Assembly (NCBI RefSeq): GCF_000196175.1
Contig: NC_005363.1
Location: forward strand, 2,108,001-2,172,000
DNA: 64,000 nucleotides
Reading direction: 5' to 3'
Source: Bdellovibrio bacteriovorus HD100
GTDB lineage: Bacteria > Bdellovibrionota > Bdellovibrionia > Bdellovibrionales > Bdellovibrionaceae
Part shown: in pieces, positions 21,649-59,477 of the stretch
Numbering within the stretch: the first letter of the stretch is position 1
Layout: each line of letters opens with the position of its first letter
Program-made: the position numbers and the translations under genes
The notes under the pieces: model-generated
The model's database searches: none
What the model was told of the DNA's origin: nothing
The model's input: only the letters and a program-made list of their open reading frames with translations

Positions 21649-23372
21649 GTGGCTGCCTTTAAATCCCGAATAAGAATCTGAACTGTCTTTTGCCCGGCAA
21701 AATAGTTCCACTGCAGTTCACCCAGAACATGGTAGAACCCTGGCACATTCGTCAAGGTATCCAGCTGGCGCGGTGTCGGCGTGAACAACAAAGCTTCCGC
21801 GGAAGCCCCGCCATCGGCATCAGCAATCTTCAATCGAAGATGACCGCCCTTCAGCTCGCGCTTGGACAAAACCTGAACATTGGTAAAATGAATCAAAGGA
21901 ATCGAGAACCCCGCCCCGAACGGACCGACGAAATCATACCACTTCATCAGAGCTTCGCTGACTTCGGAAAGCCCGGCTTCAACATCATAGAAGATTTCAA
22001 GCGGTTTTGGCTTTTCGCGCAAATCCGAGAAATGATCCGCTAGTTTCCCCACGAAAGTGGAAACCTTGGTTTCAGCAATTTCAAAACCCGCCGCGGCCGA
22101 GTGACCTCCGAAACGACTGAGCAATTCCTGCGCCGAAGACATCGCTTCCACCAGGCAGGCTTCCTGACCTTGTGGCAAACGGGCACTGCCCACGATCATG
22201 CCATCATCACCCACCGCACCCACAAAGGCCGGTTTGTTATAGACTTGGGTCAGCTTGGTCGCGATCAATCCAAGAACGCCTCGATGGAAATTTCTGGAAG
22301 CCACAAAGACGAAATCCTGATGAGGCCAGCCTTGAAGTAATTGTTGAGCTTCAGCTTCCGCATCCCCCTGCAACTGCACGCGGGTGGAATTATTCTTCAT
22401 CACTTGTCGAACCATATCGCGGGCTTGGCTTGGATCATCCAACAGGAATATATCAATCGGAAGAATGCCGGATTCCATGCGCGAAAGCGCATTCAGTTTT
22501 GGAGCAAAACGAATTGCCACATCCTGACTGGTCAATGGGCGTCCGGTCAGATCCAATTCTTCAAGCAATGCTCGAAGTCCGGCGCGCTTGGTTTCAGCCA
22601 GCTTCACCAGGCCGTGTTTTACCAGCACGCGGTTGTCATCCACCAGCGGAACCATGTCTGTCAGAGTGCCAATGGTAAAGTAATCTAGTACCTCTTTTAA
22701 ATCCCAATTGTTTTTAGGCAGTTGTGGATGATCGTGGAAGTGACGTTTCAATCCACGCAAAAGATAGAAGGCAACACCGGCACCACAAAGATAACCCAAT
22801 CCCGACGGACAATCGCCTTGATTGGGATTCACCACCACAAAGGCAGAAGGAATGGTATCGGCAGGCAAATGGTGGTCGGTCAGAATAACATCCACACCCA
22901 GTTCATTGGCTTTATCAATCGCCGCGTGCGCGGTGATACCAACGTCTACAGTGATGATCAGACTGACACCTTGCTTTTTCAGTTCTTCCACAGCATGGGC
23001 ATGGAAGCCGTAACCTTCAGCCAGACGTTTGGGCTGATAGTGCAAAACATCGGGGAAACCCAAGGCCAGCATGCCGGTTTTCAGCAACGCCAGACCGGAA
23101 GTTCCATCCAGATCGAAGTCAGCATAGATGCAGATTTTTTCTTTATTCAGGTACGCCTGACCCAGGCGCTCAAGAGCTTGAGACATCCCCTTAAGTACAA
23201 GAGGATCTTTCAAATCAGCGAGCTTCGGGAAAAGAAGCTTCTCAACATGGGAAGCTTCGGCAAAACCGCGGGCTGCAAGAACCTTCGTGATGAGCTTCGG
23301 CCATTGCCCCTCGACATTCGAGGGGATGACTGGCTCATTTTCAGATTCCCGCAGCGTCCACAAAGGATTCAT
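21645..23372 (-). CDS. recJ: Single-stranded-DNA-specific exonuclease RecJ
   Basis: The 575-residue protein has the DHH phosphoesterase core: ADFDLDGTSGLALL (a variant of the DxDxDG motif), TVDVGI, and LTDHHLP. The DHHA1 region carries GGHSAAAGFEI and the C-terminal OB-fold region follows. RecJ degrades ssDNA 5' to 3' in recombination and mismatch repair. The length fits the family. It starts about 10 bp after the secF stop and couples to queC by a 4-bp overlap. Confidence 0.94.
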   Translation of the reverse strand: MNPLWTLRESENEPVIPSNVEGQWPKLITKVLAARGFAEASHVEKLLFPKLADLKDPLVLKGMSQALERLGQAYLNKEKICIYADFDLDGTSGLALLKTGMLALGFPDVLHYQPKRLAEGYGFHAHAVEELKKQGVSLIITVDVGITAHAAIDKANELGVDVILTDHHLPADTIPSAFVVVNPNQGDCPSGLGYLCGAGVAFYLLRGLKRHFHDHPQLPKNNWDLKEVLDYFTIGTLTDMVPLVDDNRVLVKHGLVKLAETKRAGLRALLEELDLTGRPLTSQDVAIRFAPKLNALSRMESGILPIDIFLLDDPSQARDMVRQVMKNNSTRVQLQGDAEAEAQQLLQGWPHQDFVFVASRNFHRGVLGLIATKLTQVYNKPAFVGAVGDDGMIVGSARLPQGQEACLVEAMSSAQELLSRFGGHSAAAGFEIAETKVSTFVGKLADHFSDLREKPKPLEIFYDVEAGLSEVSEALMKWYDFVGPFGAGFSIPLIHFTNVQVLSKRELKGGHLRLKIADADGGASAEALLFTPTPRQLDTLTNVPGFYHVLGELQWNYFAGQKTVQILIRDLKAAT

Positions 23373-29769: not shown

Positions 29770-30192
29770 ATGAACAAGGTCTCTCTTCGCTTAGGTCTGA
29801 TCACAGCAGCCACTCTTTTCACCGCAGCCTGCGCCCACCACCCGGATGTTCGCGCCGGAGCTGACGGCGTTCACCGCGTCGTCATCGCCAGCGAAGACAC
29901 CGAACAGGGCTCCCGCGAAGCCATCCGTCAGGCAAACAGCTTCTGCAAAGAACGCAACCAAACAGCCGCTTTCATCAACGAAAACTCCCAATACAAAGGC
30001 GACTATGATGAAAAGACTTATAAAACCGCAAAAAAAGCCAGCAAAGCAGCCCAAGTCCTGGGCAGCGCGACCTATGTTTTGGGTGGCCAAACAGAATCCA
30101 CCGCCGGCGGGATCGTAGGCCTAGGCGGCGCCGTCGCCGACGGAGTTCTGGGTAACGGCTACAACGTCGAAATGAAATTCAAATGCATGTAA
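29770..30192 (+). CDS. Predicted lipoprotein
   Basis: ATG 29770 is preferred since AAGGA is 9 bp upstream. The resulting 140-residue protein has a lipoprotein signal peptide with lipobox LFTAAC, so it would be lipid-anchored at the following Cys. The mature part has alternating Lys/Ala-rich helix (residues ~75-95), two further cysteines (NSFCKE and the C-terminal KCM), and a Gly-rich stretch (GGIVGLGGAVADGVLGNG) resembling glycine-zipper segments of small envelope lipoproteins. The family is not recognised. Confidence 0.75.
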   Translation: MNKVSLRLGLITAATLFTAACAHHPDVRAGADGVHRVVIASEDTEQGSREAIRQANSFCKERNQTAAFINENSQYKGDYDEKTYKTAKKASKAAQVLGSATYVLGGQTESTAGGIVGLGGAVADGVLGNGYNVEMKFKCM

Positions 30193-30230: not shown

Positions 30231-30371
30231 ATTTGGGGCCCGAGCTAGGCCCCTGTCGGCGCGCCGTTCGGCACGGCATCCTGCCTCGTCGCTTCCGCCT
30301 GCGGCGGAGGGCCATCCAGGCCCCGCGAAGGCCTCTCTCTGGCCGCCAGGGTCCTTCCTCGCTCCCCAAAT
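30231..30371. repeat. GC-rich element bounded by ATTTGGGG/CCCCAAAT
   Basis: ATTTGGGG (30231-30238) is inverted exactly at 30364-30371 and encloses ~125 bp of GC-rich DNA. That DNA has inner complementary pieces such as CCGCC and GGCGG near 30295-30308. It may be a small repeat element or a structured RNA. No transposase is present, and I saw no direct repeat that would mark an insertion. Confidence 0.5.
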
Positions 30372-30513
30372 TTTGCTATTTACGAACGAACAACGCCCCT
30401 GATTTTCGGCGCCAACCTACACAGCTCAGTGCAAAAACAAAAAAATATAAAACAGAGAGTCACGCGCGCGGGCACGTTTAAAAAAACGAAAGCCAAACTG
30501 TTTTTAGTAATGA

Positions 30514-30688
30514 GGGCCTTGAGCAGAGGTCTTTAAGCCTGCCCGAAAGCGGGCCTTCGGTGGCGCATGGGGGAGGTGGGCCCTCCTGTTGGAGGGTGCC
30601 GACCTCGAACCGGGACGCAGTCCCGGCACCGATTGAGCATGGACGGTGCCGCTGTAGCGGCAGGCTTAAAGGCCTCTGCTCAAGGCCC
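30514..30688 (+). ncRNA. Candidate structured RNA closed by a 30-bp stem
   Basis: The arms 30514-30543 and 30659-30688 are complementary over 30 positions. The single difference (T30530 against G30672) becomes a G-U pair if the plus strand is transcribed, but an A-C mismatch on the minus strand. The enclosed 115 bases hold further hairpins: a GAGGT/ACCTC stem over GGC-CCTCC/GGAGG-GTGCC, CGGGAC-GCA-GTCCCG, GGCACCG/CGGTGCC and GCCGCT/AGCGGC. Total size is about 175 nt. It starts 35 bp beyond the stop of the converging glutamate-synthase-like gene, so a 3'-UTR element of that gene is an alternative. Confidence 0.45.
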
Positions 30689-30722
30689 GCCCCCGCTCGA
30701 AGTATTTGTATTTAGATTTGTT

Positions 30723-32219
30723 TTAAACGCCTGGATGGATTTCGGCGTAGGTCTTAATGGTGTCGTCTTCGACACGTTTGTACAGGTGGCTGCGGTTCAA
30801 GTCTTGGTGACGGGCCACACCCATCGCGCCGATCACGTGGGCTACGGATTCCAACGTTTCCTGATGGAAATTCTTCACACGCACGCGCTTGGTTGGGATG
30901 TGCAGACCGCGAACCAGATTTGGATCTTGAGTTGCAACACCCGTCGGGCATTTGTTGTTGTTACAGCGAAGGGCCTGAATACAACCCAAGGCCAGCAGCA
31001 TGGATCTTGCCGCGTATGTCGCATCTGCGCCCAGGCACAACAACTTGATGATATCAAATGCCGTCGTGATCTTACCGGTGGCGATGACTTTGATTTTGTC
31101 CTTCAAGCCGGCTTTTTTCAGCGTGTCGACAACGATCACCAAAGCATCCATACCTGGCATGCCGATGTAATTGGTGAATTCCAGCGGCGCAGCACCTGTT
31201 CCACCTTCGGCTCCATCCACGACGATAAAGTCCGGATAGATTTTTTCAACGGACATCAGGCTGACCAGCTCTTCGAACTCATTGCGGTGGCCAAGGCACA
31301 GTTTGATCCCGATAGGCTTCCCGCCGGAAAGTTCACGCAGCTTTGTGATAAAGGCCAGCATGCCGCGGCTGTCGCTGAACGCCTTGTGGCCCGGAGGTGA
31401 AATCACATCCTTACCCATTGGCACGTTACGGATATTGGCGATTTCCTGGGTCACTTTTTTCCCGGACAGCATACCGCCATGACCGGGCTTTGCGCCTTGA
31501 GAAAGTTTAATCTCAATCATCTTCACTTGTGGGTGAGCCGCGTTTTTCTTGAACAATTCCGGATCAAAATCACCGTCATGAGTGCGGCAACCGAAATAAC
31601 CCGTTCCGATTTGCCAGATCAGATCGCCGCCCGGCTCCAAATGGTAAGGGGAAATACCACCCTCGCCGGTGTTGTGCGCAAACCCCCCGTCTTTGGCGCC
31701 ACCGTTCAAAGCCAGAATGCTGGCCGTGGAAAGAGAACCAAAGCTCATCGCAGAAATATTCAAAAGCGACATGGAATAAGGCTGTTTGCACAGATCCGTC
31801 CCGATCGTAACACGCAGATCTTTGCGATCGACATGCTTTGGATACATGGAATGAGTCACGAACTCATAGCCTTGCGCATACACGTTGTGCTGGGTTCCAA
31901 ATGGAACCGTGTCCAACACTTTCTTTGCACGCTGATAAACCACGGAACGCTGTTCACGGTTGAACGGTTTTCCATCGGTGTTGGATTCGATAAAGTATTG
32001 ATTTATTTCAGGTCGGATGGATTCCAGAATATAACGGAAGTGACCAAACACCGGGAAATTCGCCTTGATGGCATGACGATTCTGATGGAGGTCGCGGAAC
32101 CCCAGCAGGAAGAAAGGCACAAACAAGAACAGGGAATAAAGTCCTGGTGTCCAATAAAGATAGAACAACACATTCAGACCCACTGCCACCGCAAATGCGA
32201 TATAAAACTCTCTTCTCAT
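30723..32219 (-). CDS. FMN-binding glutamate-synthase-domain protein, membrane-anchored
   Basis: ATG 32219 has GAGG 5 bp upstream and begins a 498-residue protein with two N-terminal membrane helices (FYIAFAVAVGLNVLFYLYW and LYSLFLFVPFFLLGF). The rest matches the central/FMN domain of glutamate synthase large subunits: GEGGISPYH, KPGHGGMLSGKKV, GAEGGTGAAP and the 3Fe-4S cysteines in LGCIQALRCNNNKCPTGVATQDP. No amidotransferase domain or small subunit is present, so this is the stand-alone archaeal-type GltB-like family, whose reaction is uncertain. Confidence 0.88.
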   Translation of the reverse strand: MRREFYIAFAVAVGLNVLFYLYWTPGLYSLFLFVPFFLLGFRDLHQNRHAIKANFPVFGHFRYILESIRPEINQYFIESNTDGKPFNREQRSVVYQRAKKVLDTVPFGTQHNVYAQGYEFVTHSMYPKHVDRKDLRVTIGTDLCKQPYSMSLLNISAMSFGSLSTASILALNGGAKDGGFAHNTGEGGISPYHLEPGGDLIWQIGTGYFGCRTHDGDFDPELFKKNAAHPQVKMIEIKLSQGAKPGHGGMLSGKKVTQEIANIRNVPMGKDVISPPGHKAFSDSRGMLAFITKLRELSGGKPIGIKLCLGHRNEFEELVSLMSVEKIYPDFIVVDGAEGGTGAAPLEFTNYIGMPGMDALVIVVDTLKKAGLKDKIKVIATGKITTAFDIIKLLCLGADATYAARSMLLALGCIQALRCNNNKCPTGVATQDPNLVRGLHIPTKRVRVKNFHQETLESVAHVIGAMGVARHQDLNRSHLYKRVEDDTIKTYAEIHPGV

Positions 32220-32323
32220 TTCAGCCTCAAGACCCTCTCGCCTAATAAACTGTGTGCTTGCCGACAAGTATCGGACACAAAGCACAGCCAATCTAGTCCA
32301 ACTGGACTGAAAAGGCAAAAGGG

Positions 32324-43530: not shown

Positions 43531-44484
<954 letters not shown>

Positions 44485-44491
44485 AAGGTAC

Positions 44492-44513
44492 CTGCTTACT
44501 TTTGCTTAAGCAG
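44492..44513 (+). other. Small hairpin in the kdsA 3' region
   Basis: CTGCTTA (44492-44498) and TAAGCAG (44507-44513) pair perfectly over an 8-base loop, directly after AAAAGGTACC, a motif also seen at other gene ends here. It immediately precedes the terminator hairpin. Confidence 0.45.
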
Positions 44514-51449: not shown

Positions 51450-51486
51450 CCCTCTGCGCGCAGCGCTCTTTGGGGCTCTTGCCCTC
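51450..51486. repeat. Inverted partial copy of the tRNA-Leu 3' end
   Basis: These 37 bases match the 3' end of the tRNA-Leu gene plus its flank (complement of 51603-51639) at 33 positions, including a perfect 16-bp block CTCTTTGGGGCTCTTG against 51608-51623. The copy includes the acceptor-stem 3' strand and CCA position in altered form. The orientation is inverted relative to the tRNA, so the pair can also form a long stem. Confidence 0.75.
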
Positions 51487-51623
51487 ATTGGCAAGTTCCG
51501 CAGGCCTTTGCAGTAAACTGAACCACCCAAAGACGCCGACGAACCCAAAAGCGACCTAAACAAGTAAAATAAAGAAAAGAGCGAGGACTGTCCGAAGCCA
51601 AGGAGGACAAGAGCCCCAAAGAG

Positions 51624-51706
51624 TGGTGCGCGGAGAGGGACTTGAACCCTCACGCTTGCGCATACGCCCCTCAAACGTACGTGTCTACCAATTCCACCAT
51701 CCGCGC
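51624..51706 (-). tRNA. tRNA-Leu (anticodon GAG)
   Basis: The minus strand folds as a class II tRNA. The acceptor stem is GCGCGGA/TCCGCGC, the D-arm region is TGGTGGAATTGGTAGACAC, and the anticodon arm TACGT-TTGAGGG-GCGTA gives GAG at positions 34-36. The variable arm is CGC-AA-GCG, the T-arm is GAGGG-TTCAAGT-CCCTC, and CCA is encoded. GAG reads CUC/CUU leucine codons. Confidence 0.95.
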
Positions 51707-59454: not shown

Positions 59455-59477
59455 AAAAAAGTACCAGGTACCTTTTT
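59455..59477. repeat. Palindromic AAAAAGTACC/GGTACCTTTTT motif
   Basis: Left and right arms of 11 bases match at ten positions around a single central base. The GGTACCTTTT end recurs near 44485 and, as GGCACCTTT, near 12497. It lies between the antiporter start and the subtilisin terminator. Confidence 0.5.

Follow-up and report, generated by a model that had tools for sequence, protein, structure and literature searches.

A hairpin of Bdellovibrio bacteriovorus HD100 belongs to a dispersed family of palindromic elements with variable arms and a conserved core

The hairpin and its locus

The window is a stretch of 64,000 nt from B. bacteriovorus HD100 (NC_005363.1, positions 2,108,001 to 2,172,000). 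A long hairpin occupies positions 30514-30688, in a non-coding region bounded by two stop codons, at 30192 for an ORF on the + strand and at 30723 for a gene on the - strand. The features of the locus, in window positions, are as follows.

29770-30192, + strand: flanking gene 1, an ORF of 140 aa with a signal-peptide/lipoprotein-like start and without a family match
30231-30371, - strand: second copy of the element, degenerate, head-to-head with the first (covariance model and DNA fold)
30231-30702, no strand: composite inverted pair that takes up most of the space separating the two convergent genes (model matches)
30514-30543, + strand: 5' arm of the closing stem, of variable, locus-specific sequence (arm pairing and fold)
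30535-30667, + strand: family-model match, comprising the innermost nine stem pairs and the conserved three-hairpin core (84.2 bits; also 64.5 bits, E = 7.5e-15)
30573-30606, + strand: nested palindrome GAGGT-GGGCCCTCCTGTTGGAGGGTGCC-GACCTC, replacing the usual hairpin (DNA search and family alignment)
30610-30626, + strand: core hairpin CCGGGACGCAGTCCCGG, with strong covariation throughout the family
30635-30650, + strand: core hairpin GAGCATGGACGGTGCC (family alignment and covariance model)
30659-30688, + strand: 3' arm of the closing stem (arm pairing and fold)
30689-30702, + strand: conserved 3' tail, family consensus CCCCGCTCGAAGC, with the - strand gene's stop codon 20 nt further on
30723-32318, - strand: flanking gene 2, encoding a protein with a glutamate synthase (GltB-like FMN) domain (PF01645, E = 7.6e-89)

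The hairpin structure is confirmed. As originally predicted, all 30 positions of the arms pair on the plus strand (29 Watson-Crick pairs and one U30530-G30672 pair), and they enclose a loop of 115 nt. The + strand hairpin folds as RNA with an energy of -123.8 kcal/mol (z = -10.2), a value matched by none of 200 shuffled sequences, and the - strand with an energy of -111.3 (z = -9.1); as both strands fold well, fold strength alone cannot choose between them. In the orthologs of genomes G006 and G003, the closing-stem arms differ in sequence, but their pairing is retained.

The inner ~26 nt of the nested palindrome were also found at further loci, with different closing stems. The G006 ortholog has this palindrome and the G003 ortholog does not: a small dispersed palindrome has replaced one core hairpin in both HD100 and G006, the original hairpin being found in G003. 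This second dispersed palindrome, GGTGGGCCCTCCTGTGGAGGGTGCC, occurs in the window at 30573-30606 and at loci L006, L010, L016, L017 and L026-L029. Its closing stems are locus-specific and complementary (CTGC/GCAG, TTGC/GCAA, CTTA/TAAG and GAGGT/GACCTC), giving a miniature of the same design, with a conserved apex and a variable base.

Two parts of the locus lay beyond the original prediction: the conserved tail and the partner copy on the - strand. The partner was detected as a covariance-model match at 30252-30350 (E = 6.1e-8; G000:2138252-2138350), and its stem extends to 30231-30371 (DNA fold, z = -4.2). The hairpin at 30514-30688 is, thus, one half of a head-to-head pair. The same arrangement was found at G000:1191848/1192174, and head-to-head pairs were also present in G002, G003, G005, G006, G008, G011, G012, G016, G017 and G023.

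The window contains other palindromic sequences. A long quasi-palindrome at 51450-51639, with 43-nt arms 88% complementary and 104 nt apart, lies beside an apparent tRNA gene (- strand) and falls outside the element family according to the model. A dispersed palindromic repeat around AAAAGGTACCTGCTTACTTTT, at times bearing a small GGGCCCTCC palindrome, is present at 44483-44503 and 59456-59476, and at loci L010 and L017.

A dispersed family with a conserved core

DNA searches of the HD100 genome and of the genus showed that the interior of the element recurs at other loci with different arms. A covariance model built on eight copies (R1) identified copies in 22 of the 24 Bdellovibrio genomes and in one sister genus, and none in the remainder of the order. 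With a broader model (R2), a search of 369 genomes from the phylum extended this range by a single weak match, in another sister genus. Within the phylum searched, the family is limited to Bdellovibrio and these two sister genera. Copy number is ~2-26 per genome, with 14 copies in HD100 (R2 matches, E up to 0.1; one weak), and the element is about 180-200 bp long. These multiple, related, non-coding palindromic copies between genes constitute a dispersed intergenic palindromic repeat, and the hairpin in the window is one copy of it, not a lone RNA gene or a unique locus. A weak match to the family model at window positions 22136-22246 (- strand; 17.8 bits, E = 0.027) may be a decayed copy or due to chance. 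A separate dispersed repeat of ~53 bp was seen at locus L178 (about 1260-1312; query 661-713), with several copies in HD100 and G006 (86-96% identity).

The element was not found in phage and plasmid records. A loose DNA pattern gave only scattered matches in genomes and viral contigs, and the covariance model identified no convincing member among 70 pattern loci (all 60 viral loci and 10 genome loci), the best match (E = 0.006) being located off the pattern. A search of the locus against Rfam 15, suggested with the original prediction, yielded no family at the gathering score, the best match being MIR4374 (20.4 bits, for a cut-off of 105). The HD100 copies likewise matched no Rfam family, and the 6S RNA covariance model gave no match to the locus at E up to 10. 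As far as the literature searched shows, the family is apparently undescribed.

The anatomy of the element, and the stem and placement counts below, are based on 151 distinct copies. In 5' to 3' order, the element consists of (TAGCAAA)GATTTG, a stem of ~30 bp, a symmetric CGAAG/CGAAG internal loop, the core, the complementary arm, CAAATC and CCCCGCTCGAAGC. The core, GGCCTTCGGTGGCGCATGGATGCGCGAACCGGGGC...GCCCCGGCACCGACTGAGCACGGACGCGTGCC and variants of this sequence, forms three hairpins. The closing stem changes in sequence at nearly every locus, and the 5' arms are G+T-rich past the ninth pair. Covariation is extensive across the family, 18 of the 20 core pairs varying in type. The description of an undescribed, multi-hairpin, conserved and non-coding element was therefore upheld, whereas that of a single RNA gene was not.

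Pairing statistics and evolution of the arms

A first count of stem pairs (132 G-U and 131 A-C) was dropped, as its alignments extended beyond the stem to include a conserved AAA/CCC mismatch. It was replaced by a strict count, which gave 3539 Watson-Crick, 56 G-U, 22 A-C and 81 other pairs over the 151 copies. In the core, G-U accounted for 0.34% and A-C for 0.14% of pairs. The control was a true RNA, RNase P RNA, taken from the same genomes (23 of the genus), and gave 7.4% G-U (9.3% at variable pairs) and 0.3% A-C; relative to it, G-U in the core is depleted ~20-fold. The large excess of G-U over A-C at varying pairs characteristic of an RNA-selected hairpin was not observed. A mild excess was seen on the window + strand (56:22), with the innermost nine pairs contributing most of it (41 versus 14), for copies including orthologs that are not independent and partly share these pairs by descent. 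RNA pairing rules do not describe the evolution of the element.

We compared the stems of orthologs in two close species, G002 and G005. Changes on both sides with conservation of pairing (72) outnumbered one-sided changes (21). In total, 16% of stem pairs had changed, versus 14% divergence in the adjacent non-stem flank (252/1802) and one change in 101 pairs for RNase P. With independent mutation at d = 14% per site, paired two-sided changes would be expected to amount to a few per cent of one-sided changes; they were more than three times as frequent. Selection for pairing would slow the evolution of the stem, whereas copying of one arm from the other would leave a neutral rate and two-sided changes, and copying thus fits these data. 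The stems change at the neutral rate, with both arms in lockstep, consistent with arm-to-arm copying at the DNA level. Template switching is a known process keeping hairpin arms perfect (PMC8794818, PMC8604942). As arms can change together by copying one another, perfect pairing by itself is not evidence of a working RNA. The original prediction took the single G-U pair as a trace of selection on RNA structure, an argument left unsupported by the low core G-U content and by arms that change together, at the neutral rate. The covariation between relatives that it called for does exist, as the G006 and G003 arms illustrate, but the pattern of change fits DNA copying rather than RNA selection.

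Some of the differences between stems may have another origin. At larger distances, cores were often closer to paralogs from the same genome than to positional orthologs; the core of G002_L171, for example, was 94% like a copy in the same genome and 80% like the best positional ortholog. Between species, conserved gene neighbourhoods often contained copies with unrelated stems. Replacement of the whole copy, rather than arm correction, would account for some cases, such as G002_L171.

Transcripts and placement

RNA sequencing in HD100 identified eight attack-phase sRNAs (PMC3627812), and none of those in the published table, growth-phase sRNAs lying outside the scope of that study, is located at 2138514-2138688. 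The transcript sought on the plus strand was, thus, not present among them. The published HD100 coordinates are usable, as a c-di-GMP riboswitch was found at the position mapped for the HD100 merRNA. One of these transcripts, APsRNA6 (1,338,787-1,339,441, + strand; PMC3627812), contains another copy of the element (1,339,146-1,339,249), in the opposite orientation. It starts about 360 nt upstream of this copy, spans a 92-aa ORF and continues past the copy, and may be an mRNA, rather than an sRNA, that carries the element towards its 3' end. The end of APsRNA6 apparently falls close to another copy, a degenerate one; in locus L239 (G000:C1:1338000-1340400), the two copies lie at 1147-1250 and about 1406-1505.

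Convergent genes flanked 59 of the 151 copies. The gene on the 3' side pointed at the element in 103 of 137 cases, at a median distance of 56 nt from the model end. For 63 of these 103 copies, the model end and the stop codon were 26-78 nt apart, and for 33 they were 90-166 nt apart; of the sequences inspected for the latter group, most have an ordinary intrinsic terminator between the gene and the element. An intrinsic terminator of its own, with a hairpin followed directly by a T-run, was found neither in the window element nor in the family copies, the sequences adjoining the stem being CCCCGCTCGAAGC at one end and TTTGC or another sequence at the other. Nothing clear emerged for replication-strand bias, judged by eye.

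Search for empty sites and transposase genes

Three comparisons between close relatives revealed no clean empty site, the orthologous sites holding a divergent copy or other DNA. At L140 (G002:C1:1041600-1044800), G002 has the element and G005 and G009 have ~1.8-2 kb of other DNA, a difference attributable to replacement or deletion rather than to an empty site. No transposase gene was adjacent to the element. Y1/RAYT genes were present in 21 of the 24 genomes, but the ten RAYT (Y1) loci examined contained no match to the element at E up to 10, and copy number did not track Y1: three genomes with 6-11 copies had no Y1 match, and two with a Y1 match had no copy. An association with RAYT/Y1 was therefore not supported by adjacency or copy number.

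Interpretation

We consider the element to be most probably (a probability of about 0.7) a dispersed, non-coding palindromic DNA repeat of Bdellovibrio, REP/MITE-like, with fast-changing lockstep arms and often head-to-head between convergent genes. This reading accounts for a multicopy family confined to the genus and two sister genera, with variable, near-perfect stems between conserved ends, for the scarcity of both G-U and A-C in a core in which almost all pairs vary, for the preponderance of two-sided changes at a rate close to that of the flank, and for unrelated stems in conserved neighbourhoods and cores closest to those of the same genome. We infer from these sequence comparisons that DNA is the level at which pairing is important or arises. 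The arms would extrude or lie single-stranded during replication, and template switching would repeatedly correct them against each other, turning ordinary point mutations into two-sided changes. The multiple copies, the similarity of cores within a genome and the nested palindromes point to spread or conversion, and the element may have dispersed in the manner of REPs or MITEs, as a non-autonomous repeat that moves or converts, through recognition of its conserved core and ends. For the host, it may at most mark or insulate the 3' ends of genes. The lack of a clean empty site, of an adjacent transposase and of copies at the ten RAYT loci examined argues against this reading, as does the + strand G-U excess, which a strand-blind DNA process does not predict, with the reservation about orthologs made above; moreover, some stem differences may reflect replacement by another copy.

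That + strand excess, the very stable fold, the covariation and the conserved unpaired motifs of the core would all suit a structured RNA of ~175 nt transcribed from the + strand with a selected fold, as originally proposed. We nevertheless regard such an RNA as quite unlikely, given the core G-U content, the neutral divergence of the stems on both sides together, the Rfam results and the published attack-phase sRNAs, the only one of which to overlap a copy starts far upstream, with an ORF. A need for pairing on both strands would also suppress G-U, and the rarity of both G-U and A-C, together with the convergent placement and the nearby stop codons facing the element, could therefore indicate a two-way transcription barrier, terminator or 3'-end stabilizer between convergent genes, with RNA hairpins selected on both strands. 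This possibility is unlikely, as no T-run follows the hairpin, an ordinary terminator mostly precedes the element in the more distant group, APsRNA6 passes through one copy, and selection for pairing should have pushed stem evolution below the neutral rate, which was not seen. Mobilization of a REP/REPIN-type element by the Bdellovibrio RAYT (Y1 transposase) genes would be in keeping with the head-to-head dimers, extragenic placement and palindromes, with the wide distribution of Y1 genes, and with the REP dimers known within long palindromes elsewhere (PMC3733652); it is also unlikely, because the element far exceeds the 20-40 bp of REPs, the ten RAYT loci examined have no flanking copy, and Y1 presence and copy number do not match.

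Conservation of the core sequence, which also counts against the preferred reading of a DNA repeat family, implies that something recognizes the core, and the core may have an RNA role. More speculatively, and quite improbably, the family could be a distinct class of DNA element kept or spread via a folded single-stranded intermediate, with a protein recognizing the branched core and one arm re-copied from the other in each cycle; every locus would then have its own perfect, fast-changing arms around a fixed core.

Of the sequence evidence for a functional RNA, covariation is usually held to be the strongest kind. More than 150 copies here combine strong covariation and perfect stems changing at the neutral rate with no RNA-like tolerance of wobble pairs, a clean natural case cautioning that perfect arms are insufficient grounds for naming RNA genes. 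Correction between arms could be measured in bacteria with this family as the system. For a model predatory bacterium, it is an additional, apparently undescribed repeat family, and it raises the testable question of what recognizes the conserved core.

Comparison with known systems

The element resembles REPs and REPINs in its dispersed intergenic palindromes, head-to-head dimers, location near gene 3' ends and lineage specificity, some REPs also lying in longer palindromes (PMC3733652, PMC3116915). It differs from them in having 180-200 bp and a three-hairpin core rather than the single hairpin of 20-40 bp of a REP, ~2-26 copies per genome, a locus-specific closing stem and no transposase flanked by it. 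The GTAG/CGTC tag of REPs was not found as such: CGAAG/CGTAG lies in the internal loop, on both sides, and is not an end tag. MITE-like repeats, such as Correia/NEMIS, ERIC and RUP, are short, non-coding, dispersed, foldable and intergenic, without a gene of their own, and the element shares these features. The terminal inverted repeats of Correia/NEMIS, ERIC and RUP are conserved, whereas the element has variable inverted-repeat arms and a conserved centre. In integron attC sites and parvovirus inverted terminal repeats, which function through a branched DNA fold, sequence-poor stems surround conserved features or lie inside them. The likeness of the element to them in these respects is an analogy; it has no associated integrase, cassette or Rep gene, and its conserved and variable parts are placed differently. 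Finally, perfect arms, multi-base two-sided changes and few wobble intermediates recall quasipalindrome correction (PMC8794818, PMC8604942, PMC7202029). Such correction is a mutational process and not an element, and here it would act on one family genus-wide.
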